Positions 25,828-51,877 of a DNA stretch of 64,000 bases are shown one piece after another. Both the position numbers and the translations under genes were made by a program. Within the stretch, counting starts at the first letter, position 1; each line of letters starts with the position of its first letter. The notes beneath the pieces are model-generated. The model had not been told where the DNA came from, did no database searches, and saw only the letters and a program-made list of their open reading frames with translations. This DNA is from Caldicellulosiruptor morganii (GTDB lineage Bacteria > Bacillota > Thermoanaerobacteria > Caldicellulosiruptorales > Caldicellulosiruptoraceae). The stretch spans positions 287,001-351,000 of the forward strand of contig NZ_CP113865.1 in assembly GCF_026810225.1 (NCBI RefSeq). Direction: 5' to 3'.

Positions 25828-25845
25828 TAAAAAAATTTTTTAGGT

Positions 25846-25877: not shown

Positions 25878-25909
25878 GATTTATATTATTTTTCTCAAAA
25901 TAGGGGGTT

Positions 25910-26404: not shown

Positions 26405-26437
26405 GGAAAAGCCTTAAAGTAGTAAGTTTGGTAGCAC

Positions 26438-26472
26438 GGTCAACAGCTAAAAAAGTGCGTGTTGGCCTTTTT
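26438..26472 (+). terminator. Rho-independent terminator after the HD gene
   Basis: GGTCAACA (26438-26445) pairs with TGTTGGCC (26460-26467), followed by TTTTT. A related stem survives in copy 2 at 63240-63266. Confidence 0.75.
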
Positions 26473-26574
26473 CCCATTTGCTAAGAGGGTATGTGGTTTG
26501 ACAAAATAAACTAAAAAGGAACCCCATACCTAATTTAAGTCAAGAATTTTTTTGGAAAATTTTTAAAGACAAAG

Positions 26575-27018: not shown

Positions 27019-27067
27019 CTCAAAAATAGCCAATGATATAACGAAGTTGGTTCTTTATACAAGCCAT

Positions 27068-27131
27068 TGACACAAAATTCTTTAGAGCGTAAAATATATA
27101 GCATGCAAAATATTCTTATACGAAATATTTT
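27068..27131 (+). promoter_or_regulatory. Promoter and candidate operator of the MarR-led operon
   Basis: TTGACA (27068-27073) and TAAAAT (27091-27096) with a 17-nt spacer. An inverted repeat AAAATATT-N8-AATATTTT (27108-27115 and 27124-27131) lies just downstream of the expected start site, a normal place for autorepression by a MarR protein. Confidence 0.7.
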
Positions 27132-27159
27132 AAAACTAAATGTTGAAAGAGGCGCGAAG

Positions 27160-27603
27160 ATGGATGATATAAGCAAAGGGCTTAAGATAATTGAGCTTGT
27201 AAAGGAAATAATGAAGATAACAAAGAAAATAGCGAGGCACCAGTTTGACCAATTTGACATCACAGCACCTCAGGGGATGCTGTTGGGGCAGCTGATTCGC
27301 CATGGAAAGATGAAGGTGAGCGATTTGAGCAGAAAACTGGGGCTATCGAACAGCACTGTCTCAGGAATAATTGACAGGCTTGAAAAGCAGGGGATGGTTC
27401 AGAGAATAAGGAGTCAAGAAGACAGAAGAGTTGTGTATGTTGATGTCACACCAAAGTTCAAAGATGCTTTTGAGAAAAATTTTAAGGATATGGAGAAGAG
27501 GTTTGAAGAAATACTCAACAGGGCAGACGAAAAAGAGATAGATACAATATTAAATGGCCTTGAAACCTTAAAAAAGGTTTTAGATAGGTATGTGCACAAA
27601 TAA
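27160..27603 (+). CDS. MarR-family transcriptional regulator
   Basis: A 147-residue winged-helix protein: DITAPQGMLLGQLIRHG, then MKVSDLSRKLGLSNSTVSGIIDRLEKQGMVQR (recognition helix) and the wing SQEDRRVVYVDVTPK. ATG 27160 is preferred since AGAGG lies about 7 nt before it and MarR proteins usually start about 35 residues before the helix-turn-helix core. It is followed by a two-gene ABC exporter, so drug-responsive repression of that exporter is likely. Confidence 0.88.
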   Translation: MDDISKGLKIIELVKEIMKITKKIARHQFDQFDITAPQGMLLGQLIRHGKMKVSDLSRKLGLSNSTVSGIIDRLEKQGMVQRIRSQEDRRVVYVDVTPKFKDAFEKNFKDMEKRFEEILNRADEKEIDTILNGLETLKKVLDRYVHK

Positions 27604-27666
27604 ACTTTGTTTACAGCAGCTATTTTAGCTAAAAATCCAAAAACTAAACAAAGAAGGTGAGCTATC

Positions 27667-32786: not shown

Positions 32787-33937
32787 GTGAAAACATATAG
32801 ATTTTACATGCCACCTATTAGCTTGATGGGAAGAGGATGTTTGAAAGATGTTGGGCAAGAAATCAAAGCTTTAGGTTATAAAAAAGCACTGATTGTAACA
32901 GATAAAGCATTAGTGAAAATTGGTTTGGTTAAAAAAGTTACTGATATGTTAGATGAAGCAAATATAAATTATGTAATATTTGATGAAACAAAACCCAATC
33001 CAACAGTAAAGAATGTTGAAGATGGTTTGAAAATGTTAAAAGATAATAATTGCGACTTTTTAATATCAATTGGAGGCGGTTCACCACATGATTGTGCCAA
33101 AGGTATAGGACTTGTTGCAACTAACGGAGGTTCAATAAAGGACTATGAAGGGGTAAACAAATCACAAAAACCGATGCTTCCTCTTGTTGCTATCAATACA
33201 ACTGCAGGAACAGGCAGTGAAGTGACAAGGTTTGCAATTATCACTGATGAGGATAGACATGTAAAGATGGCAATAGTTGACTGGCATGTGACACCGCTAA
33301 TTGCTGTAAATGACCCAGAGCTTATGATTGAAATGCCAAAGTCGCTGACTGCTGCAACTGGAATGGATGCGTTAACGCATGCAATCGAAGCGTATCTATC
33401 CACAGATGCAACACCGGTTACAGATGCTTCAGCCTTGATGGCAATTGAATTGATTTTCAAATATCTGAAGAAAGCTGTTGAAAATGGCAATGATATTGAA
33501 GCAAGCGAAAAAATGCCTATGCTGAGTATTTGGCAGGAGTTGCATTTAACAATGCGGGTTTGGGCTATGTTCATGCAATGGCACATCAATTAGGAGGATT
33601 TTATGATTTGCCACATGGAGTGTGCAATGCAGTATTATTACCACATGTTTTGGCATACAACTTAAAGGTAGTTCCACATAGATTTATTGACATTGCAAAA
33701 GCAATGGGGATTGATGTGCAAGGAGCTTCGGCTGAGAAAGCCGGTGAAATGGTAATTGAGAGCATTAAGGCTTTGTCAAAAGAAATAGGTATACCGTCAG
33801 GTTTGAAGGAATTGGGTGTAAAAGATGAAGATATAAGGATTTTAGCTGAAAATGCTTTAAAAGATGCTTGTGGTTTGACAAATCCAAGGCAAGCTACTGT
33901 AGAAGAGATAATGGAAATTTATAAATCGGCATTTTAA
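32787..33937 (+). pseudogene. Iron-containing alcohol dehydrogenase (frameshifted)
   Basis: Two frames (32787-about 33513 and 33515-33937) together give a complete group III alcohol dehydrogenase close to 1,3-propanediol dehydrogenase (DhaT): [39 protein letters not shown], and in the second frame [19 protein letters not shown], which supplies the iron-binding histidines. The break is at an A6 run (33508-33513): one more A would restore [16 protein letters not shown]. The cause could be mutation, transcriptional slippage or a sequencing error. GTG 32787 has GGAGGGGT upstream. Regulated probably by the divergent AraC gene. Confidence 0.85.
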
Positions 33938-36062: not shown

Positions 36063-37430
36063 ATGAGAAGTAGATACTATTGTGTAAAGCAGCATGATAT
36101 AACGGACTGTGCGGCAGCAAGTCTTGCGACAATTTGTTTGCAATATGGGAAAGAGGTATCAATAGCCAAAATAAGGGAAATAGCAGGGACAGACAGGTTT
36201 GGGACAACGGCATATGGAGTTGTAAAGGCGGCAAAGGAGCTTGGATTTGAAGCAAAAGCAGTTCGGGCAGAAACTAAAGAAGCAATATTTGAGAAAATAC
36301 CACTTCAGTGCATAGCGCATGTGCTGGTAGATGGTAAGTTGTTTCATTATGTTGTAATACATGAAATTGGTAAAGAAAAGATAGTGATAGCAGACCCGGC
36401 GAAAGGGATTGTGAAGTTAAAGCCTGAGGAGTTTTTTGAGATATGGACAGGCATTTTGATACTTCTTGTACCAAATGAGAGGTTCAAGAAAGGAAAACAA
36501 GAAGGAGTTTTGAAAAAGTTTTTTAAGCTATTAAGTCCGCAGAAGGGCTTGATATTGAATATTTTTGCAGTATCTATTGTATATACCTTACTTGGGATAG
36601 GGGCAGCGTTTTATTACAAGTTTTTGATGGATGATGTAATACCAAATCTGTTGAAGAATACTCTTCATGTTATAGCAGCAGGTGCAATACTGATTACGAT
36701 ATTTAAGGTGATATTAGGAGCATTCAGGGTAAGGCTTTTGATACATTTGAGCCAAAGATTGGATATTAGATTAATGCTGGGGTATTATGAACATGTAATT
36801 AAGCTTCTGATGAGTTTTTTTGGTAGCAGAAAGATAGGAGAGATAATTTCGAGGTTTATGGATGCGTCAAAGATAAGGGATGCGGTATCAGGTGCAACGC
36901 TAACACTTATGATAGACAGCGCAATGGCGGTGGCAGGCGCAACTGTTTTGTATTTGCAAAATTCCACGCTGTTTTTCATAGCCTTTGTAATGGTTTTGTT
37001 ATATGCAGCAGTAGTGCTTGGATTTAACAGGGCATTGAGGGAAGCGAACAGGCAGGAGATGGAAGACAATGCAATTTTGACGTCATATTTGGTAGAGTCA
37101 CTGAATGGGATAGAGGTAGTAAAGGCATTTAATATAGAAGAGGATGTGAATTTTAAGACAGAGAGCAAGTTTGTAAAGCTTTTAAAGGATGTTTTCAAGG
37201 TAGCGAACCTAAACAATTTGCAAAGTAATATAAGCAGTGGAATAGCAGCGGTAGGTGTTATGGTAATACTGTGGGCAGGAGCACACAAAGTAATAAATGG
37301 GCAGATGAGCATAGGAGAGTTATTTACATTCAATGCACTGCTTGCATACTTTGTAGACCCGATAAAGAACTTGATAGGATTGCAGCCAATGCTGCAGACG
37401 GCGATAGTTGCAGCCGAAAGGCTTAGTGGA
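36063..37430 (+). pseudogene. C39 peptidase-ABC exporter, truncated by an IS256 end
   Basis: About 456 residues of a peptidase-containing bacteriocin exporter. The N-terminal C39 domain has the full triad: Cys16 (Q10...DITDC16AAAS), His95 (GKLFH95YVVIH) and Asp111 (IAD111PAKG), so it could cut double-glycine leaders. Six membrane helices follow (about residues 155-430). The sequence reaches MLQTAIVAAERLS, just where the ATPase linker begins, and is then interrupted at 37431 by an IS256 terminus. The ATPase domain is missing from the window. A short read-through tail runs to 37544. No precursor is adjacent. Confidence 0.88.
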
Positions 37431-38680
37431 GACTTGTCAAGAATTTTGTGTTTCCAATTTATAACGCAAGTAGTAAAGTTGGGTTATATTATTGATGCAT
37501 TTTTTAATAGTGGGAACTCCATTTTTCCATTTTGTGCATTGTAAGTTCTCTCGCTGCAAGTAAATATTAATTTCTAAGACTTCAACAGACTGAAAGTATC
37601 CACCTGAATTTTCTTCTAGCCTTCTCAATCATGCTGTTTACACATAAAGCGGCGTTTGTGGTAAGAATATGCTTCCTTAATTCTTCAGGGTATTTCATAT
37701 GGGCAAGATAAAACTCTGCTTTTTCTGATATTGCAGCAATAAAATCGAGGATATTTTGAAAGATACTCGTTGCAAAGTTCTTTAAATTTAAATACTTATC
37801 AATCGAAATCAGAAGTTTAGAATTTTGATTTTGTCTAAACTCTTATTAAAAGTTGGAGCGTCTTCTTTTGTCATATGTTTTCTGATATTACGTTGTAGGT
37901 GGACAAAAGCAAACTTAAGATCAGCAAGAGGGTAAGCAAGTTTGACAGCATCTATAATACCAGGGAAGTCATCACTTATGACAATTAGAATCTCTTTTAG
38001 TCCTATTGTAATTAAGTCGTCAAATACTTTCATCCAATCAGCCTTGTTTTCTTTGCCGAAGAAAGAACAGAATACCAAAGATATTTTTTTACTTTTCTTG
38101 AGTCAATACCGAGGACAACATAACAAGTAACATATTTGCCCTTAGAATTATCCTTAACTTCACTTCTGAATAACCGTCGATGATTAAGAACAAAAGCACA
38201 TGTAGAGAATTTTCTTTGTTTAAATAATTGAAGTTCATTTTTAAGGTCTTCTTTAATTTTTAGGATTTCGTTTTTGTAATCAAGAAGATTTAAATTTTTC
38301 AAAGTTTGAACAAGAGAATACTCAAGAGTACCCGTTGACGTACTCATGACATAAGAAGGTAAGTAGATGAACTATCAACTCTTTTGTAGCGGTCAGGGAG
38401 GATAGAAGGGCAAAAATTCAAAAGTAACGTGTGCGAGGGACAGAAATTTCAAGACTGCCTACAGGTGTTGCAAGTTTTACTTCAATAAAAACCATTGCCT
38501 TTGTCATTGTCATTTTTAGCAAGGGCTACTTATTTTTCGATAACAAAAGGCAATCGAGCAGGTTTTACTTTTAGCTGTTTTAAAGCTGGGCGGTTAGGCT
38601 CGTCGCAAGAAACAATACATATTTAATACTTGTTCTACAGCTATATTTTTAGCAGTTTCGTAAATTTCGTTTTTATTCAT
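37431..38680 (-). pseudogene. Decayed IS256-family transposase (copy 1)
   Basis: The left terminus GACTTGTCAAGAATTTTGTG (from 37431) equals that of the intact element at 49189. Reading leftward from ATG 38680, MNKNEIYETAKNIAVEQVLN is the transposase start. Later fragments (38347-38030, 38078-37809, 37628-37437) align along the intact 409-residue protein but are separated by frameshifts and stops. The right end diverges after about 38710, where IS110-type leader DNA begins. Confidence 0.85.
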
Positions 38681-38819
38681 TTTCATGCCCCCTTGTATAA
38701 TTATTTTCGTAAGACACATCAAAAAAATTCTAATAAAATAACAACCAAAGTTTCGGTTAACATAAGATTTTGAGTCTCATCCTTAAAATAACATCTCAAA
38801 TACTACCTCTTTGAGAGGA

Positions 38820-39118
38820 AAGCAGCGCAAAGTCTCTTCCTGCTGCTTGTGGCTTCTAATCTTTAGCCACTTTAACGCTGGCCTCTTGCCAGCCATTCTA
38901 ACTTTGATATAATTCTTTCTATCTGGGCATGGAATTTACCTGTACGCGCCCCCTGGGAACGGAACTTCTTTCCGTATACCCGTGAAAAAGATTATTATTC
39001 CATTCCAGGTAAGTCTAAACTATTTGGCTGGTTGAGGCCAGCTTAGATCCTAATCAAAGCTGGTTCCTCGCATCACGTGCAAGGTTGTATACTTACCTTT
39101 GCTCGGAATGGAAAACTC
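38820..39118 (+). ncRNA. Candidate IS110 bridge RNA (element 1)
   Basis: The leader is full of perfect stems: GTGGCT/AGCCAC (38849-38869), GCTGGC/GCCAGC (38877-38893), ACGGAA/TTCCGT (about 38959-38975), and a long-range pair CCATTCC-A-GGTAAGT (about 39000-39014) with ACTTACC-N7-GGAATGG (about 39091-39111) that leaves a one-sided loop. IS110-type leaders are known to encode bridge RNAs whose internal loops pair with target and donor DNA. Part of this block is conserved in the IS110 remnant near 26990-27016. Exact ends and guide loops are not established. Confidence 0.6.
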
Positions 39119-39165
39119 ATGCCCTAATTCAATTTCAAAATCACTTGCAGGGAGGTTTAATTGCT

Positions 39166-40458
39166 ATGAATCTAAAACCTATTGCCGGGATTGATGTAGC
39201 CAAGTATTTCAGCGAAATGGTGATTATATCTCCTACAAATGAAATAATTGCCCGCTTGACTATCCGTCACAATAATCCCTCTGATTTTGATAGGGCTATT
39301 GAAATCCTTAAAAAAGTTGAAGAGGATTTCGCAGCACGCCCTATCATCGTCATGGAAGCCACAGGGCATTACCACAAAATCCTCTCCCGCTTCTTTACTT
39401 CTAATGGCTGGGATGTTTCAATTATCAATCCCATCCAATCTAATTCTATCAAAAATGCGGGAGTTAGAAAAGTAAAAAATGATAAAACCGATGCCCTGTG
39501 GATTGCATTAACTTTTAGACTTACTGACTCTACTGTAGTACAACCTTCATCTGAAATCCTCGACTGCTTGAAAAACCTATGCCGCCAGTATTACAACCTC
39601 AGTGATGAACTAACCTCTTACAAATACAGACTTACTTCTGTCGTCGATCAAATTATGCTCAATTTCAAAGAGGTCTTCCCTGACATTTGTTCTAAAACAT
39701 CCTTGGCTATACTTGAAAACTACCCAACTCCAACCGATATCTTAGGCGCTGACAGCGAAAAACTTATTTCCATCATTCAGCTAACCTCTAAAAAAAGCTA
39801 TCAATGGGCCAAAGAAAAATATGAATTACTTGTCGCAAAAGCTAAACAGTTTCAACCTTTTTCTATATCAGACTTAGCAACTGTTACTATGCTTAAAGTC
39901 TATATTAACATGGTCCTGAATTTACAGCAGAATATCGACAAAATTTTTGAAGCCATAAATCAACTTGTTCAGCAATCTTCGCAATCTCAGCCTTCACTCA
40001 TGGAAAATATTAACCTCCTTCAATCTATCCCCGGCATAGGTTTTCTATCCGCTGCAACTATCCTTGCTGAAATAGGTGATTTCGAAAAATTTTCAAAACC
40101 CAACAAGCTTGTTGCTTTCTTTGGTGTAGATCCTTCCGTAAATCAATCGGGGCAATTTGTTGGCACAAAAAATAAAATGTCTAAACGTGGTTCTAAAATC
40201 TTGCGAAGAATCTTATTTACAATTGCTCTTGCCAATATCAGAACAAAAAGAAATTCTAAACCTTGTAATCCTGTATTATTCGAATACTATCAGAAAAAGT
40301 GCCAACAAAAGCCCAAAAAAGTTGCATTAGGTGCTGTTATGAGAAAAATTATTTGTATTATCTTTGCTGTTATGCGCGATAAAAAACCTTTTGAACTTAG
40401 AACTCCAGAAGAACATATTCAAAAATACTTTAATAAAACTGCAGTTTGTAGTGCATAA
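39166..40458 (+). CDS. IS110-family transposase (element 1)
   Basis: A 430-residue DEDD transposase. The RuvC-like N-domain has Asp10 (IAGID10VAK), Glu64 (VMEATG), Asp106 and Asp109 (KNDKTDA). The C-terminal Tnp domain has LLQSIPGIGFLSAATILAEIGD and the serine-bearing MSKRGSKILRR. The start ATG 39166 has GGAGG (39151-39155) upstream; the longer frame to 39085 overlaps the structured leader. The reading frame is intact, so the element may be active. Confidence 0.93.
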   Translation: MNLKPIAGIDVAKYFSEMVIISPTNEIIARLTIRHNNPSDFDRAIEILKKVEEDFAARPIIVMEATGHYHKILSRFFTSNGWDVSIINPIQSNSIKNAGVRKVKNDKTDALWIALTFRLTDSTVVQPSSEILDCLKNLCRQYYNLSDELTSYKYRLTSVVDQIMLNFKEVFPDICSKTSLAILENYPTPTDILGADSEKLISIIQLTSKKSYQWAKEKYELLVAKAKQFQPFSISDLATVTMLKVYINMVLNLQQNIDKIFEAINQLVQQSSQSQPSLMENINLLQSIPGIGFLSAATILAEIGDFEKFSKPNKLVAFFGVDPSVNQSGQFVGTKNKMSKRGSKILRRILFTIALANIRTKRNSKPCNPVLFEYYQKKCQQKPKKVALGAVMRKIICIIFAVMRDKKPFELRTPEEHIQKYFNKTAVCSA

Positions 40459-40630
40459 ACAATTGTTCTGTTTACGAAACATTAGTTAACAATAACACTA
40501 CTCAGCCTCCATATGTTATGTCAACTTCTAATGGATGGCTTACCTTTTTGCGCCCTCTTTAAAGAATCTTATACCATAAAATGGTGTCAAAATTTTTTAA
40601 AAAAACTCTTGACTTTAATTAGCTGGTCTT

Positions 40631-40680
40631 TGATGATTGTTTCAATACTAATTATACAGTGGGCACAATTTTATTTTAAC
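40631..40680 (-). repeat. IS256 right-end remnant
   Basis: TTTCAATACTAATTATACAG and CACAATTTTATTTTAAC match the right end of the intact IS256 (50450-50491) with few changes. It abuts an ISL3 transposase fragment. No 8-bp target duplication joins it to the left end at 37431. Confidence 0.8.
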
Positions 40681-41262
40681 CCCCTCAAGAGAAGTAGGAA
40701 ATTAATTCTTAAAAGATATAAGAAGCTTAAGCCTGAGCAGAGAGAAGAATTAGAAGTAATGTTTTTATATGCACCGGAATTAAGGATAGCTCACAGATTG
40801 AAGGAAGAATTTAACGAAGTATTAGGAAGTAAGACATGTGATGAAGTAAAGGAGAAGCTCAAGAAATGGATAGAGATAGTAGAGGCAAGTAATTTAGAAG
40901 AATTCCAAAGATGTGTACAGGTATTTAGAAATTGGTTTTCAGAAATAGTGGAATCATTTGATGTGCCGTATACAAATAGTTTGACAGAAGGATTTAACAA
41001 CAAGATAAAGGTGTTAAAGAGGAAGGCATATGGATTTAGGAATTTTGAAAGGTTTAGGAAGAGGATACTGTATTGTTGTACAGACTAAGAATATGGTAGA
41101 GGTAAATATTTAAAAGTTTCCATTTTTAATAAGCGATAGAAGTTGTTGATGAGTTTTTACAATCAAATAGTTATAATTGTTATTGATGTAATTAAATGCA
41201 TGCTTAATTAAACTGAAAGGTGAGCATTCAGAACACCCACCCCAACTCTTGACAAAGGGCCT
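40681..41262 (+). pseudogene. ISL3-family transposase C-terminal fragment and right end
   Basis: The frame to 41088 gives about 135 residues typical of the ISL3 (IS204/IS1001/IS1096/IS1165) C-terminus: PELRIAHRLKEEF, FRNWFSEIVESFDVPYTN, SLTEGFNNKIKVLKRKAYGF and RFRKRIL. The N-terminal DDE part is missing, cut by the IS256 end at 40680. Beyond the stop, GAACACCCACCCC followed by AACTCTTGACAAAGGGCC (to about 41262) looks like the element's terminal repeat. Confidence 0.85.
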
Positions 41263-41625
41263 AAATTTTAGAAATTATGGTATTAACTGTTTTAGTTTTT
41301 GTCGAAATTTATTTATGATTCAAATCATTAAAATTAGCTTTCATAACTAATTTTGATATAGCTTAATAAACTAATTCTCTGAAAACTGAGCTTAAATACT
41401 TAGATATTATTATACAATGCTTTAAACAAATAGCTCTAAAATGTTCCATAAATAACAATAAAATACATATGATTCTAATCTTAAAAATATATAACAGTTA
41501 ATAGTAACAAGTGTTGAACTCAAAAATATAAGCGGTAAATGAACTGCGTCTAATAATAAAGATTTAAAAAAAATGTGGCCTGGACTGAACCCTTTTATTT
41601 CAAAAACATCGGAGGTGATAAATGA
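41263..41625 (+). other. AT-rich leader region of the RiPP cluster
   Basis: About 360 nt without a credible gene. It should hold the promoter of the RiPP operon, but no clear -35/-10 pair stands out; several TATAAT-like strings occur. The GGAGGTG ribosome site of the precursor gene ends it (41610-41616). Confidence 0.4.
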
Positions 41626-41826
41626 ATGAATAGTAAAATTTTTATTAATCCTATACCTATTACCATGGATGAGGTCTACAATGCTTCTTTATCACATTTG
41701 GAAATGGAGTCACCGTCTCATGTGGGTGGAGGAATAATTGCAATAGCAATTGTTGCATGCGGTGGTAAATTGGGTTCGGCCACAATAGTTACTGCAGGTA
41801 CTACTATAGTAACAGTTGCTGCCTAA
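41626..41826 (+). CDS. Putative RiPP precursor peptide
   Basis: A 66-residue peptide with a strong GGAGGTG site. Residues 1-33 are leader-like: polar, acidic (TMDEVYNASLSHLEMESPS). A HVGGG motif (residues 32-36) is a good double-glycine cleavage site for the C39-like protease downstream. The remaining 30-31 residues form a very hydrophobic core with a single cysteine (Cys45, in VACGGKLG) and many Ile/Val/Ala/Thr, ending TIVTVAA. It directly precedes a PqqD-radical SAM gene. I do not recognise the core family. A role as bacteriocin or signal is inferred from context. Confidence 0.8.
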   Translation: MNSKIFINPIPITMDEVYNASLSHLEMESPSHVGGGIIAIAIVACGGKLGSATIVTAGTTIVTVAA

Positions 41827-41937
41827 TTATATTGTAATCTTTATTGAAATCTTTTTACTCTATGTATTTATTTTTATAATTTAGGTTTTATGAAGGTTCA
41901 GTCCAGGTCTGAATTTAAAGAAGTGAGGGGAGAAACT

Positions 41938-43401
41938 ATGAGTAAAGAACAAATCATAAAATATAAATATGCCGAAGAGAAAAAAATAATACCACTTCCA
42001 AACGACGATATTATTATTTTAGATGTTTCATCGCCCAACTGGTTAAAAACATCAATTACAGGAAAATATTTATTAGAAGAAATGAAAGAACCTAAAACAA
42101 TAGATGAATTAACTGCTAAAATATCTCAGGTTTACGGCTTACCAATAGACGTAGTTAAGCCTATTATTCGTGAGACTGTAGAAAAATTTTATGAAACAGG
42201 TGTTGTTATAAGGATAGATAAAGACAACAAATTTACTTCGAGGGAAAAGCAGAAAATTGAATCATTAGGACTACAACAAATATGGATTAATGTAACATAT
42301 GCCTGTAATTTAAATTGTTCTCATTGTTTTGCACGTATGAAAGGAGATACAGGCTTTATACCTGCTAATGATTTAATTCGTATATTTAAAGAAGCTCAAA
42401 GCTTGGGAGTTCAGGAGATAGTGATATCTGGGGGCGAACCAACACTCCATCCTGAATTAGAAAATATATTAAGAGAAGCAAGAAAAATAGGTGATTGGAA
42501 GATTAAGTTGATAACTAATGGATACTTATCTGGTAATCCTGAAAATGAAAGAAAAATAAAATCTCTTTGTAACTACGTTGATGATATCCAGGTTTCTTTT
42601 GATGGGATAAAACCTGAAACTCATGATGCTATTAGAGGGAAAGGTTCTTTTGAAAAAGCGTATCGATTTATGTTTTTATTGTCAGAAGTTGAAAGCATTA
42701 AAACAGGTATTTCATTTACGCCATTACCAAAAAATATAAATGAGATTCCAAAATTATTTAATTTTGCAATTCAAGTTAAAGCAACTTATATACACTTAAA
42801 TCGGCCTAAGTATCCCCTTAATACTTTGGCTTTTCCGTCATTAGACTTATTCATGTCACAACAATTTGCTGAAGAAGCTTTTACTGCTTATGATAAACTT
42901 GTACAAGAATTCTATAAATCCTTCGAGGATATGAGAAATCTTAATGTTAGACTTCCAATTATCGATACAAGTTTTGATCCAGCTTCTGAATTACTAAGCC
43001 CACTTAAAAAAGAAAGGTGTAGTGCTGGTATATTGACAATTGCAATTGATCCAAAGGGAGATGTATTTCCTTGTGCTGCCTTAATGAGAAGAGAAATGTT
43101 ATATTTTGGCAATGTTTTTGAGGAAGGACTTGAAAAGATTTATAAAAGAGGACGCGATAAAATGATAGAGTTATTTTCAGTTGAAAAAAATGATAAATGC
43201 AAAGAATGTTTGTTTCGATATTTCTGTGGTGGTGGATGTAGAGCAACTGCCAAGGATTTGAAGGAATGTGATTATTTATGTGATATATTCCAAAAGCGCT
43301 TTATAGATTTTTGGAAAAGGATTTCTCTGCCTGTAATAAGAACTTATGCAAATAAGATTTACGAAACAAGAGAAGGAGGTATAAAAAGATTGACATGTTA
43401 G
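41938..43401 (+). CDS. PqqD-fused radical SAM/SPASM peptide maturase
   Basis: A 487-residue protein. Residues about 1-100 are a PqqD-like leader-binding domain (GKYLLEEMKEPKTIDELT, then YGLPIDVVKPIIRETV). The radical SAM core carries Cys123-x3-Cys127-x2-Cys130 (CNLNCSHC) and ISGGEPTLHPEL. The C-terminal SPASM domain binds two more clusters: CSAG, DPKGDVFPCAAL, CKECLFRYFCGGGC and CDYLC. The layout is that of AlbA-type sactipeptide/ranthipeptide maturases, which link Cys sulfur or carbons in the core. With one Cys in the partner core the product type is open. ATG 41938 has GAGGGGAG upstream. Confidence 0.92.
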   Translation: MSKEQIIKYKYAEEKKIIPLPNDDIIILDVSSPNWLKTSITGKYLLEEMKEPKTIDELTAKISQVYGLPIDVVKPIIRETVEKFYETGVVIRIDKDNKFTSREKQKIESLGLQQIWINVTYACNLNCSHCFARMKGDTGFIPANDLIRIFKEAQSLGVQEIVISGGEPTLHPELENILREARKIGDWKIKLITNGYLSGNPENERKIKSLCNYVDDIQVSFDGIKPETHDAIRGKGSFEKAYRFMFLLSEVESIKTGISFTPLPKNINEIPKLFNFAIQVKATYIHLNRPKYPLNTLAFPSLDLFMSQQFAEEAFTAYDKLVQEFYKSFEDMRNLNVRLPIIDTSFDPASELLSPLKKERCSAGILTIAIDPKGDVFPCAALMRREMLYFGNVFEEGLEKIYKRGRDKMIELFSVEKNDKCKECLFRYFCGGGCRATAKDLKECDYLCDIFQKRFIDFWKRISLPVIRTYANKIYETREGGIKRLTC

Positions 43402-43670
43402 AAAAAAGACAATTAATTATGCAAAATATTACAACAGAACAACCGCTGAACGGCTGTATTAGAATAGTTAACAGTGAATATGAAATTTATCTTGGTACTC
43501 TCCAGGGATTGATTTGGAGAAAAATAAGTGAAAATGGACAATTGACAATAGGAGAACTTTATCAACTATTAATTTCAGAAAACATTAATATCAGCTATGA
43601 TGAATTAGTAGAAGTAGTATCTGTGTTTTTGCGTTATGGTTTGGTTGTAATACGAGATGAATTATGGTAA
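43395..43670 (+). CDS. PqqD-like RiPP recognition protein
   Basis: A 91-residue protein overlapping the end of the radical SAM gene by 7 nt. Its pattern (GCIRIVNSEYEIYLGTLQGLIWRKISENGQLTIGELYQLL..., then VEVVSVFLRYGLVVI) is the three-helix, short-strand pattern of stand-alone PqqD-family recognition elements. It could deliver the leader peptide to the second, cobalamin-type radical SAM enzyme that follows. An alternative start is ATG 43419. Confidence 0.75.
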   Translation: MLEKRQLIMQNITTEQPLNGCIRIVNSEYEIYLGTLQGLIWRKISENGQLTIGELYQLLISENINISYDELVEVVSVFLRYGLVVIRDELW

Positions 43671-43686
43671 TATGGGGGGAAGAATA

Positions 43687-45139
43687 ATGACGCGGTCACA
43701 TGTTATATTAATTCAAGCCTGCAAATTCTCATTAATTACTGAAAAGTACAAAGAAAGGTATCCTTATCCACCTTTTGGATTGATTTGCCTTGCTAATATA
43801 TTGAAGATGAATGGATATGATGTAACTATTATAGACTTATACTTAGAGCCACTAAGCAAAAGAGAATTTGTTAAAAAACTTACACAAAGTAAAAGACCAT
43901 TATTAATCGGTATATCAAGCTATACTGATTCTATTCTAGATGCTTATAAAATAGCTGAAACTGCCAAAGAAATTTATTATGATGTTCCAATAATTATGGG
44001 CGGTCCCCATGTTAGTTTTATGTTTGAAGAAGTTATGAAAGATTGCTATGCTGTAGACTTTTGTTGCTTAGGAGAAGGTGAACCTGTTTTAGTTGAATTA
44101 TTAGAGTATCTACAGTATGGAGTTCCAAATTTAAAAGATATATATGGACTTGTGTACCGTAACAGTTTAGGACAATGTATTGCTAATCCTAAAAGAGGCT
44201 TTATAGATTCTCTTGATATTATGCCTTTTCCATGGTTTTCTGAAAAGGTCCAATCTATAATTAGAGAAGGAGAAGGTTTTGTTTTTGTATCCAGCCGAGG
44301 GTGTCCTGGAGAATGTATTTTTTGTGCTTCGAGAGCTCTATCGGGTCCAAAATATCGCTGCCACTCAGCTGAGTGGTTAGCAAGTCTTATCTATTACTAT
44401 TACAAACTTTTATCCTTTAAAATGTTTGGACCTTTAGATGATACTTTTACAGCTAATCGAATAAGGTTGAAAAAGTTTTTAAGTTATTTAAAAATTTTAG
44501 AAATTAACATTCCTTGGTCGTGTAAGAGTAGAGTTGATGTTATTGATGGAGAATTGGTGGAGATATTGTATAAATCAAAATGCATATCTGTTCATATTGG
44601 TGTAGAAAGTGGCGATGATGAAGTTCTTAAATCTATTGAAAAAAGGATAACTGTAGAAAAAGTATTAAAAGCAATTACACTATTAGCTTCAAAAGGTATT
44701 CGTGCAGAATGTTCTTTTATTATTGGTCATCCAAGTGATACATTAGAATCTATTGAAAGAACCCTTATTTTAGCTGACAAATTTAGATAAATGTGGTGTA
44801 GCAATATCTGTGATGGGAATTTGCACTCCTTTTCCTGGTACGAAAATATGGAATAGACTTAAACTGTATGAACTACAATATGGATTGAAAATTCATACAT
44901 ATAATTGGCGTTTATATGATTTAGGAACGCCTATCTTCAGTACTAATAATTTTACATTAGATGATTTAAGGAGGGCATTTTTTTATTTTAACTATTTAAG
45001 AAAAACAGGACAAATATTACCATTGTTGACTAAGTACAATCATAGTAACTACATTAAAATGATTGATGATTATTTAAGTATAATCCATAAAATTAGAAGT
45101 ACAAATGAAGATGAGGTGAATCAGAAAAATGATGTATGA
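43687..45139 (+). pseudogene. Cobalamin-binding-type radical SAM enzyme, frameshifted
   Basis: From ATG 43687 (GGGGGG upstream) the first about 367 residues contain a B12-binding-like domain (FGLICLANILKMNGYDVTII, IMGGPHVSF, CCLGEGEPVLVELL) and a radical SAM core with Cys206-x3-Cys210-x2-Cys213 (SRGCPGECIFCAS). The frame stops at 44790, but the next frame continues the family pattern (DKCGVAISVMGICTPFPGTK) to 45139. Removing one A near 44785 restores a protein of about 483 residues. Class B radical SAM enzymes often methylate carbons. The break may be real or a read error. Confidence 0.85.
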
Positions 45140-45323
45140 GTTTCTTGTTGGCTTTCGTGTTGTTTTAAGATGTCAAAACAATTTAACATTTGCAGGTATA
45201 TTAAAAGATATTATTGTAAAGGACGATAAAAAATATGTTTGGATAGTAACCGATGAGATATCACAATTTGGGATTCTTTGCCCTGTAGACTTTATTTATG
45301 AAATGATAAAAGTACCTATTTAA
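45129..45323 (+). CDS. Small protein of unknown function in the RiPP cluster
   Basis: A 64-residue, soluble, beta-rich-looking protein (VGFRVVLRCQNNLTFAGILK, WIVTDEI) that overlaps the upstream frame by 11 nt and has GAGGTG 9 nt ahead. The strand pattern recalls small Sm/SH3-like barrels, but this is only an impression. It could be a cofactor, a regulator or an immunity factor. Confidence 0.6.
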   Translation: MMYEFLVGFRVVLRCQNNLTFAGILKDIIVKDDKKYVWIVTDEISQFGILCPVDFIYEMIKVPI

Positions 45324-45349
45324 ATCTTTTTAAAGGAGAAAAGGAAAAC

Positions 45350-46021
45350 ATGATAGAATATTTATATTATGTGATTATTATATTATCTCTATGGGCTGTA
45401 TTACCCCTATTGTTTATGTTGTTGATTTCTATGTTAGCATATTTTTTCAAGAAAAATGATTTTATAATTAGACGTATTATGAAAATTGGATTAGGTCTTG
45501 GAAAGGAAAATGATGATGGAATCCAGATGCAAGTGAAGCATTTTGATTGTGGAAAGGCAGTTTTAAGCCAGATTTTAATGGATTTTGAGCTTTTTCATGC
45601 TGATTTATCATTGCCAGAACCTAGTTCAATGAAAGATATTGTTGAAGTTGCCTCAAAGCATGGTTGCTTAGCTTACGGTTATAGTGAAGCAACACTCACG
45701 CTAATTGAAGAGAGTATTAAAAGGAATGGCAAAGTTATGACACTTTTAAAAATTTATTATCCATTTGAGGGGTGGTGGGTAAAACCTACCAAATTAATGT
45801 TAAAAGTGCTATGTGGGAAAGAAGATTTGTATCATTGGGTTATGATAGAGAAAATACACGAGAAATATATTTACATTATTGATCCTTATTTCGGTAAAAT
45901 AAAATTGTCAAGATATTCTTTTGAAGATTGTTGGACAAAAAAAGTTATTTTTATTTATAATCCACTTACTCGTAGCAAAACTATTGCAAAAAGAGGGGAG
46001 GATAACATATGTATCCCATAG
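45350..46021 (+). CDS. Membrane-anchored C39-like leader peptidase
   Basis: A 223-residue protein with an N-terminal membrane helix (about residues 5-33) followed by a C39-type cysteine protease domain: oxyanion Gln62 and nucleophile Cys67 (MQVKHFDCGKAVL), His162 (YHWVM) and Asp178 (IIDPYFGKI). Unlike classic exporters the protease is not fused to an ABC subunit but is encoded just before separate ABC genes. It should cut the precursor after its Gly-Gly on export. It overlaps the ATPase gene by 13 nt. Confidence 0.8.
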   Translation: MIEYLYYVIIILSLWAVLPLLFMLLISMLAYFFKKNDFIIRRIMKIGLGLGKENDDGIQMQVKHFDCGKAVLSQILMDFELFHADLSLPEPSSMKDIVEVASKHGCLAYGYSEATLTLIEESIKRNGKVMTLLKIYYPFEGWWVKPTKLMLKVLCGKEDLYHWVMIEKIHEKYIYIIDPYFGKIKLSRYSFEDCWTKKVIFIYNPLTRSKTIAKRGEDNICIP

Positions 46022-46749
46022 AAACTATAGAGCTTACAAAGATTTATCGCAAAACTTCTCAAGGGATTGAAGGAATAGAAAAGATAAGTCTTAAGCTTTC
46101 AGAGGGACAGATACTGTCGTTGTTAGGACCTAATGGTGCAGGAAAAACTACTTTCATTAAAATAATTACTTCACAAATATTACCTGACAGTGGTGAAGTA
46201 TTTATTTATGGAAATCCACTTTGCAAAATAATTAAAGAATCTCAAATTTTAATTCGACAACAAATTGGATATTTGCCAGAAACGCCGTTTTTCTACGCCA
46301 AATTAACAGGTTGGGAATTTGCAAGATTTATGGAGAGTATATATAATTGTCCTTTAGAAGAAGGTGGTAGTTTAAGTTTTCATAGTATCGCAGACGCTTT
46401 TAATTTGACTTCTCACTTAAATAAATTAATAGCTTCTTATTCGCAAGGCATGTTACGTAAACTTGTTCTTTGTTTTGCAATAACTTTTGGCAAAAAAATT
46501 ATTATTCTTGATGAACCTTCAAACGGTTTAGATCCTGATAGTTATTTGACATTAAAAGATATCTTGCGCGAATGTAGAGCTCAGAAAAGAGCTATTTTGC
46601 TTTCTACACATCATTTATCTTTAGCCCAAGAGATTGCAGATGAAATTGCAATATTTCATCAGGGGCATATAAAATGTAAAGTAAAAAACGATGGTTCAGT
46701 AGAAGTATTATACAAAAAAATAATTCACGAGGTGAAAAATATAGAATGA
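46009..46749 (+). CDS. ABC transporter ATPase of the RiPP cluster
   Basis: A 246-residue ATPase: Walker A GPNGAGKTT, signature SYSQGMLRKL (variant of LSGGQ), Walker B IIILDEPSNGLD, and the switch His in LSTHH. ATG 46009 lies after GGGGAGG. It overlaps the permease gene by 4 nt and should drive export or provide self-immunity. Confidence 0.9.
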   Translation: MYPIETIELTKIYRKTSQGIEGIEKISLKLSEGQILSLLGPNGAGKTTFIKIITSQILPDSGEVFIYGNPLCKIIKESQILIRQQIGYLPETPFFYAKLTGWEFARFMESIYNCPLEEGGSLSFHSIADAFNLTSHLNKLIASYSQGMLRKLVLCFAITFGKKIIILDEPSNGLDPDSYLTLKDILRECRAQKRAILLSTHHLSLAQEIADEIAIFHQGHIKCKVKNDGSVEVLYKKIIHEVKNIE

Positions 46750-48206
46750 AGCTATATAAAGCTTTTTTTTCTTCTGCTTTTATACGCGCTGTTCGAACAA
46801 TAGGTATACCATTAAATTGTGAGTGTTCTAAAAAAAGAATCTTACTGAGTATTTTTACTTTGGCTTTAGGGATACTATTTTTTATTTTGAGTTTACATTA
46901 CGTGCCAGAGTCTTTTAAAATTTATCTTCCTTCTTTATTGATTGAAAAGTGGCTTGCTATTGTAATTTTTACTATTGGAGTTGGTAACTTAATTGGTCTT
47001 TTAAAATTTGAGTATGGAGAACGAGAAGAAATCATGTTTATGCTATCGTTACCTATATCACGTCAGTTCATTGTTAATTGGAAAATAACAACTCAGATAC
47101 TAGAATTTTGTATAATTATGCTAATACTGCTGTTATTTGTTGTTCCATGGGGCAGTGAGGCTATAAAGTGGGAAATTTTTTGTGTCCAATGGTTTGTTCT
47201 TTTTCTTCTTACGATAGCTAGTCTAATGTGGGGCATGGTAGTTTCTGCATTAATAGCTAAAAAAATAACCAATGAACTATTGCGAAAAGTAGTAACTTAT
47301 GGATTAGTGTTATTTTTCTTTGTGATGTCGATAATAGCAGTTTTACACATTGATACAAGTTTTATTTTTAAGCTATACAATAATGCGTGGTATTGGATAG
47401 CAACTACTAATCTTCTATTAGTGTTGGTAGCATTATCGATAAAGGCGACATGTACTTACTTTTCTGCATTTTTTGAAATTTTAAATATTTCTAATAGTCG
47501 CACAGAAACTAGAAATTATGGTAAAAATAAATGGGGCAGTTTTATGACTGCAACAGCTAAAAAGGATTGTCTTTACTACTTAAGAGAAATAGATCAATTA
47601 ATTCAAATGTTAATTATATTTGTTATTATAATAATTTCATTATCGAAATTCTCTTGGTTTGAAAAATATAGCATTTTGCTTATATTGTTGTGTCTTCCAT
47701 ACAGTTTTTCCGGGATAATTACATTACATTTGATTGGCAGAGATGGGGTAGCTTTAAACTTAATTAAGATGCTGAGAGGTACATTAAAAAATTATTATTT
47801 AATGCGAACTGTACTGTCTTATATTTTCGTCTTAATACCGACGTTGATATCCTATATTTTTCTATCAATTCTTTTCTATAAAGAAGGATTTTATATCCAA
47901 AATATATTGTTGATATTATTATTTAGTTTTATTTTTGTTATGTTAGCAATGGGTATCTCAGTTCTATTTCTACAAAAGAAAAATGGAAATATATACCTTC
48001 AAAAAAGAGGTGTTTCTGTGTTAGGGGAAATTTTTTATTGGGTTGTAGGAATTGTTTTGCCTATAGCATTAACTCGATGGGCAAACAATGGATATAAGAT
48101 AAGTAATGTTCCATTGGGGTTTATTGTGATAGCAATAGTTACCATAGTTACAATAATTAGTATTTTTATAGTTGGTTATCTCTACATTGATAAGGTAAAT
48201 GATTAA
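46746..48206 (+). CDS. ABC-2-like permease of the RiPP cluster
   Basis: A 486-residue integral membrane protein with about twelve hydrophobic segments and no other domain. The ATGA overlap with the ATPase gene shows the two are partners. Large permeases like this are found with bacteriocin export or immunity systems. It is the last gene of the cluster; no clear terminator follows, and IS debris begins after about 80 nt. Confidence 0.8.
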   Translation: MKLYKAFFSSAFIRAVRTIGIPLNCECSKKRILLSIFTLALGILFFILSLHYVPESFKIYLPSLLIEKWLAIVIFTIGVGNLIGLLKFEYGEREEIMFMLSLPISRQFIVNWKITTQILEFCIIMLILLLFVVPWGSEAIKWEIFCVQWFVLFLLTIASLMWGMVVSALIAKKITNELLRKVVTYGLVLFFFVMSIIAVLHIDTSFIFKLYNNAWYWIATTNLLLVLVALSIKATCTYFSAFFEILNISNSRTETRNYGKNKWGSFMTATAKKDCLYYLREIDQLIQMLIIFVIIIISLSKFSWFEKYSILLILLCLPYSFSGIITLHLIGRDGVALNLIKMLRGTLKNYYLMRTVLSYIFVLIPTLISYIFLSILFYKEGFYIQNILLILLFSFIFVMLAMGISVLFLQKKNGNIYLQKRGVSVLGEIFYWVVGIVLPIALTRWANNGYKISNVPLGFIVIAIVTIVTIISIFIVGYLYIDKVND

Positions 48207-48289
48207 TTGTAGGACAACTCGCTGTAATTTTATATGAGCGTTCTTGCAATGAACGAAAATAATTGAAAATGAAGTGTAATTCAGATTTG

Positions 48290-48460
48290 CATGAAGGAGA
48301 TACCTCCTGATAAAATTCAGAATGTAAGTTGGACAACTTATGACAAAATACAACAAAGGAGGTACCCTCGTCATTGTGATTCTTAGCAAGGTAGTTTGAC
48401 CTTTTCAATAACGCATAGCAACTGAGCACGGTTTTCTAAAAGTTGTTTCAAAACTAATTA
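48290..48460 (-). pseudogene. IS256 transposase N-terminal scrap
   Basis: The stretch around TTCTTAGCAAGGTAGTTTG and AGCACGGTTTTCTAAAAG aligns with the region of the intact IS256 transposase gene near 50255-50330 that encodes LLENLLDCFMLSERTVYLAKN. It is short and full of changes. Confidence 0.65.
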
Positions 48461-48469
48461 GGATGAGTT

Positions 48470-48899
48470 AAAGACCAACAGGATGAAGTGAACAGAAAGC
48501 TGAAGTGATGGTAAGGCTATTGAGCTTGAAATATAACGGTGTAAATTTGAAATTTGAAAGAAGCATATAAAAAAATTTGTAGCAATGGAAGGAAATAATA
48601 TAAAATATTGGACGAAATTGTAAAAAAACGTAAAGATGATAAAAAAGCAAATTAAGGAAACATGGGATAATGTACCAATTTTAGCAAGAGGAAAAGTTAA
48701 TTTGACGTTTGGAATACTAAAAGGTTTAAGCATTGGGAGATTTCTTAAATGCAGTCTTATTTTTGTAAAAAATTTCTCTACAAACACTTGACACTATCAA
48801 AAAGCTCCCTCCTCTTGGTAGAAGAGAAAAAATGATGTAGAATATAAGGTTGAAAAAACTAAAAAAGAAAAGGAAAAACAAACCAAAGGAGGGAGCAAA
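48470..48899 (+). other. Transposon debris and ISLre2 leader
   Basis: No intact gene. Around 48660-48790 one frame reads WDNVPILARGKVNLTFGILK then GLSIGRFLKC, which looks like the tail of a decayed transposase (family not certain, perhaps ISLre2). The last 110 nt, with TTGACACTATCAAAAAGC, are the likely left end and leader of the ISLre2 fragment. Confidence 0.4.
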
Positions 48900-49188
48900 A
48901 TGACTAAAAATATTGTATCAAAAATAGAAGAACTTTTAAAGACTTTTGAGGACGGATTAGAGAAGATAGTGCGAAGGGAGAAAGATTTAACAGAATATTC
49001 AATTGAGCTCAAGAAGCAATTGGACCAGATAGGTAAGGAGATGATAGAGGAGGCATGTAAATTTATAGAGGAATCAGCAAAAGAAAACGAAGAGAGGAAG
49101 AAGAGGTATGAGGTTGTAAGGAAAGACAAGAGAAGTTTAAAGACAATATTTGGGGATATTGAATATGAGAGGACGTATTATAAGGAGA
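48900..49188 (+). pseudogene. ISLre2-family (UPF0236) transposase, N-terminal fragment
   Basis: About 96 residues: IEELLKTFEDGLEKIVRREK, then VRKDKRSLKTIFGDIEYERTYY, the standard UPF0236/ISLre2 start. It has a GGAGGG ribosome site (48890s). Interrupted at 49189 by the left end of IS256 copy 2. The remainder of ISLre2 does not reappear on the other side. Confidence 0.85.
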
Positions 49189-50491
49189 GACTTGTCAAGA
49201 ATTTTGTGTTTCCATTTCATAGCGTATATTGTAGAGCTGTAATATATTGTAACTACATTTTTTAAGAATAGGTACTCCGTTTTTCCACTTGCCCCGACGC
49301 AAGTTTTCTCTTTGTAAATATATGTTTATCTCTAAAACTTCTACAGATTGAAAATAACCACCGGAGTTTATTCTTATCTTTTCAATCATACTGTTTACGC
49401 TTTCTACAGCATTAGTAGTATAAATGTACTTTCTTAAATCTTCAGGATACCTCATATGTGCAAGATAGAACTCTGCTTTTTCGCAAATACCTTTTATGAA
49501 TCGAGGATATTTTGAGGAGTATTGCTCACAAAGAAGTTTGAACTTTGAAATAGCTTCGTCAAAATCAGCAGAGGAAGTTCTTAGTTTATCAAGCTCTTTG
49601 TTGAAAACGGAAGCATCATCTTTTGCCATATGTTTTCTGACATTGCGTTGAAGGTGAACAAAACATAGTTGATGGTCGGCAAGGGGATAAGCGAGTCTAA
49701 CAGCATCGATAATGCCTGGAAAATCATCGCTTACAACTATTAAGACTTTTTTAAGACCTCTTGTAATTAAGTCGTCAAAGACTCTCATCCAATCGGCTTT
49801 GTTTTCTTTGCCGAAGAAAGTGTAGATACCGAAGATATCTTTTTTGCCTTCTAAATCAATGCCAAGCACGACATAGCAAGTAGCTTGTTTAACTTTTGAG
49901 TTATCTTTAATTTCGCAATGGTAACCGTCAATGATAAGAGCAAAAGCACTTTCAGGAAGTTCTCTTTGTTTGAAAAGTTGAAGCTCGTTTTTAAGATCGT
50001 TTTTGATTTTTTCGATTTCGTCTTCAGAATAAGGCAGATTCATGCTTTTAAGAGTTTGGACAAGAGAACTTTCTGAGTAACCATTGGCGACTAAAGACAT
50101 GAGCAGGTCAGTGTATGAGCTGTCAACCCTTTTGTAGCGGTCAGGGAGAATGGAAGGTCGAAAGTTACCAGAGCGTGTGCGAGGAACAGAAATTTCAAGG
50201 CTGCCAACAGGTGTTGCAAGTTTTCTGCCGTAAAAACCATTGCCTTTATCGTTTTCGTTTTTAGCAAGGTAAACAGTTCTTTCTGATAACATAAAGCAAT
50301 CGAGCAAGTTTTCCAAAAGCTGTTTTAAAGCTGGGCGAGTAGGATCATCTTTGGAGCAATACATATTTAATACTTGCTCGATAGCCATATTTTTAGCGGT
50401 TTCAAAAATTTCATTTTTCTCCATAATCGTGAGCCCCCCTTTGGTGATTATTTCAACACTAATTATACAGTGGACACAATTTTATTTTAAC
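49189..50491 (-). mobile_element. Complete IS256-family element (copy 2)
   Basis: A 1,303-bp element with ends GACTTGTCAAGAATTTTGTG and (reversed) GTTAAAATAAAATTGTGTCC, imperfect inverted repeats sharing AATTTTGTGT / AAAATTGTGT. The flanking 8-mers TAAGGAGA and TCCCAGAG differ, so there is no target duplication, and the two flanks belong to different genes. This points to a deletion or recombination event after insertion. Confidence 0.85.
49195..50424 (-). CDS. IS256-family (Mutator-type) transposase
   Basis: A 409-residue intact transposase. Conserved parts: VPRTRSGNFRPSILPDRYKR, the first catalytic Asp in FALIIDGYHC, the second in VVSDDFPGIIDAV, and the Glu region YTTNAVESVNSMIEKIR, with HLQRNVRKH between them. 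The start ATG 50424 has a GGGGGG tract upstream. Likely active in principle; a decayed relative is at 37431-38680. Confidence 0.93.
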   Translation of the reverse strand: MEKNEIFETAKNMAIEQVLNMYCSKDDPTRPALKQLLENLLDCFMLSERTVYLAKNENDKGNGFYGRKLATPVGSLEISVPRTRSGNFRPSILPDRYKRVDSSYTDLLMSLVANGYSESSLVQTLKSMNLPYSEDEIEKIKNDLKNELQLFKQRELPESAFALIIDGYHCEIKDNSKVKQATCYVVLGIDLEGKKDIFGIYTFFGKENKADWMRVFDDLITRGLKKVLIVVSDDFPGIIDAVRLAYPLADHQLCFVHLQRNVRKHMAKDDASVFNKELDKLRTSSADFDEAISKFKLLCEQYSSKYPRFIKGICEKAEFYLAHMRYPEDLRKYIYTTNAVESVNSMIEKIRINSGGYFQSVEVLEINIYLQRENLRRGKWKNGVPILKKCSYNILQLYNIRYEMETQNS

Positions 50492-50852
50492 TCCCAGAGC
50501 AACCAAAAGAGAGTTAGAGACAGCTCACTGGTTTACAATTGCTTCTGCCATTGATATGGACTACAGAAAGCTTTTGATTGCACTTTTAGACCAAGGCACA
50601 GAGCTATTCTCTTCAATCTTTATAAAGAACCTCAAAGCTGGGAATAACAGAGAAGCTTCTCAGTGTTTAAGAACTCTTATCTTGCTTGAGTACTTAAAAG
50701 AGTGTATACACAATGAAGGTATTGAGAATCTGGTAGAGCTCAGATATCCACCATTGGAGGAAGAACTCAAGTTTTGGCAGGACAAAGGATTCACAATTCC
50801 AAAGGACATATTTCTAAAATCTAAGTCAGAAAGCGAGGCGGTTTATCAATGA
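50492..50852 (+). pseudogene. 5'-truncated phage- or plasmid-type gene
   Basis: The open frame starts directly at the IS256 end with RATKRELETAHWFTIASAID and continues to 50852; ATG 50556 could restart a 98-residue protein. The coding sense upstream of that ATG shows that the natural 5' end was removed. The product is soluble and helix-rich; I do not recognise a family. The next gene overlaps it as ATGA, so it belongs to that small operon. Confidence 0.65.
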
Positions 50853-51151
50853 TAACAATTGAGAAAACTCAAACAAATGATGTATTTGAAAAAGTCTTTT
50901 CACAGCTAACAGTTGACCTTGTAAGCTATAGGTCTAATGAAATTTTAAAAGACCAAGAGTATTTGAAGACAACAGGACAAATTGATATCCTTGAGGCAAA
51001 GCTCAAAGAACTGATGAGTGATGAAGCAAAGAAAATTTATGAAGAGATTGAAGAGCTCCAGAGCTATTTATGTGCCATCTATGAACTTCACGGTTATAAG
51101 CAAGGGCTCAAAGATGGTGCAAAGCTGACAGTAAAGCTTTTGGCAGAATGA
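50849..51151 (+). CDS. Small helical protein (phage/plasmid type, unknown)
   Basis: A 100-residue acidic, heptad-rich protein (QIDILEAKLKELMSDEAKKI, YEEIEELQSYLCAIYELHGY, KQGLKDGAKLTVKLL). The end LHGYKQGLKDGA is often seen in small proteins of Firmicute prophages and conjugative elements. It overlaps the preceding frame by 4 nt. Function unknown. Confidence 0.7.
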   Translation: MITIEKTQTNDVFEKVFSQLTVDLVSYRSNEILKDQEYLKTTGQIDILEAKLKELMSDEAKKIYEEIEELQSYLCAIYELHGYKQGLKDGAKLTVKLLAE

Positions 51152-51165
51152 AACAGCAGATTCAT

Positions 51166-51194
51166 GAGCCGATAGGTTTTCAGCCTGTCGGCTC
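51166..51194 (+). terminator. Hairpin after the small operon
   Basis: GAGCCGATAGG (51166-51176) pairs with CCTGTCGGCTC (51184-51194), but no T run follows. It may be a processing or pausing hairpin instead of a terminator. Confidence 0.45.
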
Positions 51195-51235
51195 TAAGGT
51201 ATAAAATTTAGCCGTGTTAAGGAGGATTAAAGGCA

Positions 51236-51877
51236 ATGAAAGTTAATCCTGTTTTGTACCTTAAAGCTGCCAAGAGATTGAGCTCAAACTTTGTGCGTGG
51301 CAATCAATTAGGCTTAATACCTGAAGAAGAAATTAAAGAAATCTCACCAAAGATTGCATATTATCTTTTGAAGTATGTAATTACTAAACCAGAACCTGAG
51401 TTTATAACAAAAGGAGAGGTTAACGCTGAACTTTCGCTCCATTGGACTATACTACAATTCTTTTCTCAGATGACACCAGGGCAGTTTATGAATATTTTCC
51501 CTATCAAGAAATTTTACAAAGGTCACAAATATGGCATTAAAGACTACTACACAACAAAAGCAATGCTCAGCAAAGTTGATATGAACAGTCCTATTGGTGA
51601 CAAGGTTATTGATTTTTTATGGGATTATGTCAACGACGACATAGAAGAATTTCTTGTAAGATACATGGTCACAATCAGCAATTTAAGAAGATTTGAAGGC
51701 AAACCAACTATTGCCGAGGAGATAGCAAAAGAGCTTGGAGTTAAAACTTATAGGTTATATCAAGACAGCCAAGGCAAAAAGTTTTTATTTGACGAACAAA
51801 CAGGTAAAACAATAAGAGTAAGGGAAAGGCCAAAACATTTGAAAATTATCAAAGGCAGACGGTATGGGGATGTTTAA
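51236..51877 (+). CDS. Unknown protein of the mobile-element region
   Basis: A 213-residue soluble protein with a good AAGGAGG site. No motif I recognise; residues 70-150 (LHWTILQFFSQMTPGQFMNI, FPIKKFYKGHKYGIKDYYTT) are mixed helical and aromatic. Its place before a helix-turn-helix gene and a sigma-like gene suggests a phage or plasmid accessory role. Confidence 0.65.
   Translation: MKVNPVLYLKAAKRLSSNFVRGNQLGLIPEEEIKEISPKIAYYLLKYVITKPEPEFITKGEVNAELSLHWTILQFFSQMTPGQFMNIFPIKKFYKGHKYGIKDYYTTKAMLSKVDMNSPIGDKVIDFLWDYVNDDIEEFLVRYMVTISNLRRFEGKPTIAEEIAKELGVKTYRLYQDSQGKKFLFDEQTGKTIRVRERPKHLKIIKGRRYGDV

Follow-up and report, generated by a model that had tools for sequence, protein, structure and literature searches.

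A probable mobile radical-SAM RiPP operon of an undescribed family in Caldicellulosiruptor morganii

We analysed a 64,000-nt stretch of the Caldicellulosiruptor morganii genome (hereafter the window; assembly GCF_026810225.1, NZ_CP113865.1, positions 287,001 to 351,000), in which positions 41626–48206 hold a genuine gene cluster for a ribosomally synthesised and post-translationally modified peptide (RiPP). The cluster probably constitutes a mobile biosynthetic operon of an undescribed family, for which we propose a pathway. Every part named in a preliminary description of this DNA was found on the forward strand, and most of the genes overlap: a precursor peptide of 66 aa (41626–41826, ribosome-binding site (RBS) GGAGG at 41612–41616), a radical S-adenosylmethionine (SAM)/SPASM peptide maturase of 487 aa (41938–43401), a 91-aa stand-alone RiPP recognition element (RRE) of predicted PqqD-type fold (43395–43670), a cobalamin-binding radical-SAM enzyme (43657–45139), a 64-aa protein (45129–45323), a membrane-anchored C39-type leader protease unfused to an ATP-binding cassette (ABC) transporter (45350–46021), and the ATPase (46009–46749; Pfam ABC_tran) and multi-pass permease (46746–48206) of an ABC exporter. 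The permease matched no Pfam or NCBIfam family above cut-off.

The reading as a radical-SAM RiPP cluster is supported by the domains present and by a precursor that is kept beside homologous maturases. When 101 related genomes were searched, both the precursor and the SPASM protein turned up at 100% identity in a sister species (G008), and at 53% and 50%, respectively, in the metagenome-assembled genome (MAG) Firmicutes bacterium UBA5509 (G045). Taken together, two further lineages of the phylum have the precursor beside an orthologous SPASM gene, at 61% and 53% identity, so the 66-residue frame passed the test that had been set for it, namely conservation next to homologous maturases. An alignment of the three precursors left PxP..MD, M..P..VGG and CGGKLG.AT.VT.GT...TV invariant, with a leader consensus of PxPxxMD...M[DE][TS]P[SN][HQ]VGG. 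The leader, which matched nothing in Pfam or NCBIfam, comprises 35–36 residues ending in ..SHVGG(G), and the core reads (G)IIAIAIVACGGKLGSATIVTAGTTIVTVAA; the core length of 30–31 residues presumes cleavage after G35 or G36. Between the window and the third lineage (G343), the precursor genes differ at 16, 10 and 32 first, second and third codon positions (NG86 dN 0.25, dS 0.90). As judged from these differences, the gene is under purifying selection, and the prevalence of third-position changes together with the recurrence beside the SPASM gene marks the precursor as more than a chance frame. A small precursor with conserved leader and core thus accompanies maturases in several lineages.

In UBA5509, one locus (L009) comprises the full set of eight genes, arranged as in the window, which answers the earlier suggestion to look for this arrangement elsewhere. 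Compared gene by gene with the window, it showed 49% identity for the SPASM enzyme, 53% for the precursor, 40% for the RRE, 53% for the 64-aa protein, 37% for the C39 protease, 33% for the permease and 57% for the ATPase; the cobalamin enzyme reached 63% with the intact copy of the sister, and 62% and 59% with the two parts present in the window. G343 came from a profile search, and its contig ends inside the SPASM gene, with the precursor upstream. At an E value of 1e-30, the SPASM profile hit six of 398 genomes of the phylum (the window's own, UBA5509, G343 and three others with much lower scores of 115–119 bits), and in a second draw the precursor was present in two of 397, the window's genome and UBA5509. 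The cluster is rare in the phylum. A plasmid collection yielded distant radical-SAM matches only (∼25% identity), and viral contigs yielded no match.

The SPASM enzyme has clear Radical_SAM (1.1e-26) and SPASM (2.8e-08) domains, but its N-terminal PqqD match is weak (3.7e-04). Its open reading frame opens at 41890; the start is probably at 41938, because an RBS precedes that position and the relatives align from there. Both full-length copies contain the cysteine motifs CX3CX2C, CX12GX4C and CX2CX5CX3C, that is, the auxiliary-cluster cysteines expected of a sactipeptide maturase. Both also close with a C-terminal cysteine (..RLTC and ..QQRC). The enzyme remained below every NCBIfam cut-off (best match StsB, 117.1 bits against 625), and hence no curated sactipeptide maturase family was matched above threshold.

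What this enzyme might do is limited by its substrate. The core is a hydrophobic run of I, V, A, T and G, and its best conserved part is the cysteine with CGGKLG, within the invariant motif CGGKLG-x-AT that holds Cys45, the only cysteine. A lone invariant cysteine and the lack of any aromatic residue leave thioether, epimerisation or aliphatic C–C chemistry. Cyclophane, streptide (K–W) and biaryl chemistry were ruled out, as the core has no aromatic residue. We tentatively favour, with not quite even confidence, one intramolecular thioether from the cysteine of CGGKLG, placed by the SPASM enzyme in the hydrophobic core. A proteusin- or epipeptide-like route, in which the SPASM enzyme would make D-amino acids from beta-branched residues, the cobalamin enzyme would C-methylate side chains, and the cysteine would be incidental to a beta-helical pore peptide, appears unlikely: the aromatic-free I/V/A/T/G core resembles known epimerised cores and a cobalamin radical-SAM partner is present, but conservation within the core is highest at the cysteine and its motif, the leader is short and not nitrile-hydratase-like, and no epimerase family occurs among the 25 best NCBIfam matches. 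We are similarly doubtful of a carbon–carbon or aliphatic-ring change in place of the thioether, for example cyclopropylglycine formed from Val/Ile as by TvgB. The core is rich in Val/Ile and two of the three precursors contain VTVGT, reminiscent of the TVGG repeat of TvgA (PMC9062424), but the window precursor has TAG rather than TVG and no repeat, and the dioxygenase that partners TvgB is absent here.

The proposed pathway would begin with binding of the leader by the stand-alone RRE, possibly assisted by the degenerate PqqD domain at the N terminus of the SPASM enzyme. The earlier call of a stand-alone PqqD-like protein agrees with the AlphaFold model of the 91-aa protein (predicted local distance difference test (pLDDT) 86), whose best structural matches are leader-binding domains of RiPP systems (VIA scores: TigE, Z 10.5; TbiB1, 10.0; TbtB, 9.8; MibB, 9.4; PbtF, 8.9), and which is accordingly predicted to adopt the RRE fold. 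After modification, the C39 protease would cut near VGG(G); it combines a Pfam Peptidase_C39 match (1e-10) with an N-terminal membrane segment, and its catalytic Cys67, His162 and Asp178 are invariant. The ABC pair would then export the product, probably a membrane-active bacteriocin, given its hydrophobic nature.

The cobalamin enzyme, which has Pfam B12-binding and Radical_SAM domains, also scored below every NCBIfam cut-off (BchE, 135 bits against 481; ApyD, 127 against 750); its best matches, all far below cut-off, include the non-methylases BchE and HpnJ. Where the preliminary description had counted a single cobalamin-type gene, the window contains two frames, an N-terminal part of 377 aa ended by a frameshift (43657–44790) and a C-terminal part of 109 aa in another frame (44810–45139). 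They are parted by a one-base insertion, an extra T at about 44780–44788 (AAATTTAGA in the window against AAATTAGA in the sister), which the sister lacks. The enzyme is unbroken in the sister (493 aa) and in UBA5509 (478 aa); the intact B12-binding radical-SAM enzyme typical of cobalamin C-methyltransferase RiPPs is therefore found in these two genomes and not in the window. The frameshift removes ∼110 residues from the end of the window enzyme, among them the TPFPGT part of the barrel, so the enzyme is probably inactive, barring a sequencing error at the extra T. Programmed frameshifting was considered less likely, since both intact relatives read one plain, continuous frame.

In the proposed pathway, the cobalamin enzyme would make a further change, most likely by C-methylating an aliphatic residue, a step that is probably lost in the window genome. 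That B12 radical-SAM enzymes often methylate, as had been remarked, does not make methylation obligatory: PbsB, a RiPP enzyme of this type, forms a C–C crosslink (PMC12257519). Likewise, the expectation of at least two kinds of modification suits the family, in which the enzyme is intact in the sister and in UBA5509, but is not safe for the window genome, because the gene is frameshifted in the assembly. There is an appreciable chance, although somewhat short of even, that the cluster is decaying in this genome and that the broken enzyme leaves a half-modified peptide at most, or nothing. The insertion is absent from the sister copy, insertion sequence (IS) elements and transposase fragments lie on both sides, and a truncated C39-ABC transporter is present at 36063–37544; against decay, every other frame is open, the sister has precursor and SPASM proteins identical to those of the window, and the extra base may reflect a mistake in the assembly or a very recent event.

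The cluster looks horizontally acquired, as had been suspected. Its GC content is 30.6% against 36.5% for the window, and third-position GC is 20–26% against 35–48% in four control genes. Only two of 12 species of the genus carry it. The sister genome matches positions 40628–51388 with one substitution and one indel over 10,761 bases (99.98% identity), whereas the adjacent DNA is 87–94% identical and the cluster position is collinear. The AT-rich composition, the patchy occurrence and this contrast in identity point to recent horizontal spread, and transfer of the cluster region between species would be the simplest reading.

By its parts, the cluster belongs to the radical-SAM RiPPs and is not a new kind of system, while its family is undescribed in the literature that we searched. 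The earlier claim that no described family has this gene set held, with no curated maturase family above cut-off and none in the searched papers. Sactipeptides and ranthipeptides (subtilosin, thuricin CD, SKF, streptosactin with StsB) share a SPASM maturase beside a small cysteine-bearing precursor, a protease and an ABC exporter; they differ in that the present cluster has one cysteine and adds a cobalamin enzyme, a discrete RRE and an Sm-like protein, and in the StsB score given above. Proteusins of the polytheonamide type resemble it in the aliphatic core, the cobalamin radical-SAM enzyme and a cysteine protease, but have long nitrile-hydratase-like or Nif11-like leaders in place of a short GG leader and a C1A rather than a C39 protease, and the SPASM enzyme sets the present cluster apart from them. 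The TvgB/TigE cyclopropylglycine pathways also pair a SPASM enzyme with a Val/Ile-rich substrate, and the 91-aa protein finds its best structural match in the N-terminal domain of TigE; in contrast, the core here has no repeat motif, the partner genes are others, and a sequence search with the SPASM enzyme at E 1e-5 did not return TigE. The biphenomycin-type (PbsB) and ApyD clusters likewise contain a cobalamin radical-SAM enzyme, ApyD being its second-best NCBIfam match, but no multinuclear non-haem iron-dependent oxidative enzyme (MNIO) is annotated here and a core without aromatic residues makes aryl crosslinking impossible. Within the genus, a thuricin-CD-like radical-SAM RiPP cluster is known from Caldicellulosiruptor kristjanssonii (Calkr_0222; PMC3132745, PMC4289311); those papers report it from one species only, and the window locus, present in just two of 12 species of the genus, has a cobalamin enzyme, a term that PMC3132745 does not use. 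Published surveys of thuricin-like clusters and of the RiPPs of anaerobes cover, as far as their text shows, other Caldicellulosiruptor loci and not this one, and a literature search for the string CGGKLG returned one unrelated fungal paper only.

Several points weigh against the operon and pathway as proposed here. The cluster is known from three lineages only, two of them represented by MAGs: one MAG holds the complete set of eight genes, and the contig of the other breaks off within the SPASM gene. One cysteine allows one thioether at most, so the sactipeptide reading hangs on a single residue. The leader fails the classical C39 rule of hydrophobic residues at −4, −7 and −12 (PMC10885120): after a cut behind residue 36, only −4 (Val) would conform, and −7 would be Pro in all three precursors. 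Finally, the frameshift could be a sequencing error.

The precursor gene is enclosed by an inverted repeat. Its window arms, GGCCTGGACTGAACC (41577–41591) and GGTTCAGTCCAGGTC (41895–41909, forward strand, just upstream of the RBS of the SPASM gene), pair with each other, and their 13-base core occurs at these two sites of the genome only. Arms stand at the same places in UBA5509 (TGAATTGGCCAGGCC / GGCCTGGCCAATTCA) and in G343 (GGCCGGATTG / CAATCCGGCC); they differ between the three lineages yet match within each, and by eye all have GGCC-N-GG in common, a change in one arm being matched in the other. A Watson–Crick stem as good was reached in 5, 0 and 47 of 2000 shuffled flanks for the window, UBA5509 and G343, respectively. 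With G–U pairs allowed, the window (35/2000) and UBA5509 (1/2000) stood out, whereas G343 (1187/2000) did not. When the 5′ flank of one lineage was paired with the 3′ flank of another, no more than 11 bases matched, and these were AT-rich. In each of the three lineages the minimum-energy fold is closed by the stem (z = −2.3, −4.7 and −2.6). No known RNA was found in 40500–48900 with Rfam, and no intrinsic terminator was found between the precursor and SPASM genes. In the RNA, the repeat probably forms a long-range stem that sets the precursor message apart, and it may serve in processing or stability.

The 64-aa protein is predicted to form an Sm/Hfq/Rof-like barrel (pLDDT 90), matching Rof/YaeO (Z 10.0, root-mean-square deviation (rmsd) 2.0 over 61 residues) and Hfq (Z 9.6, rmsd 1.4 over 54), a common fold that does not imply a common function. 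Its acidic isoelectric point (5.1, and 6.0 in UBA5509) does not suggest RNA binding, though Rof acts on Rho and is not known to act on RNA. We consider it improbable, if worth stating, that the arms before the two RBSs wall off the precursor message while this protein acts on the stem RNA, or on Rho or RNA polymerase, and so adjusts how much precursor is made relative to the enzymes, which would make up an RNA-level control module inside a RiPP cluster.

In the surroundings of the cluster, an IS110-family element (38707–40627; IS110 copy 39085–40458) is present in the window and absent from the near-identical sister locus (L008), where the empty site is visible; from this comparison the insertion is recent. 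An ISL3 fragment, a UPF0236 fragment and an IS256 copy also lie around the cluster. At 36063–37544, a C39-ABC transporter of the bacteriocin exporter type ends before its ATPase domain and adjoins IS256-type transposase remnants; by its sequence it is a second, decayed peptide exporter. An iron-containing alcohol dehydrogenase gene (32787–33937) lies in two overlapping frames and is split in the sister too, which aligns there without a gap. The sister genome carries the stretch 20034–29000 in duplicate (606159–615132 at 94%, and 640914–647348 at 91% over most of the stretch), and the window itself contains two similar genes for pyridine-nucleotide oxidoreductases (23802–25070 and 61054–62322).

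The locus adds a rare radical-SAM RiPP family, and three lineages of the phylum have its precursor and SPASM gene. As the second enzyme is intact in two relatives and broken in the window, the two chemical steps should be separable by experiment, and stability in vitro is likely for enzymes from a thermophile. The stem and the Sm-like protein, in turn, suggest a simple route by which a RiPP operon may obtain much precursor and little enzyme.

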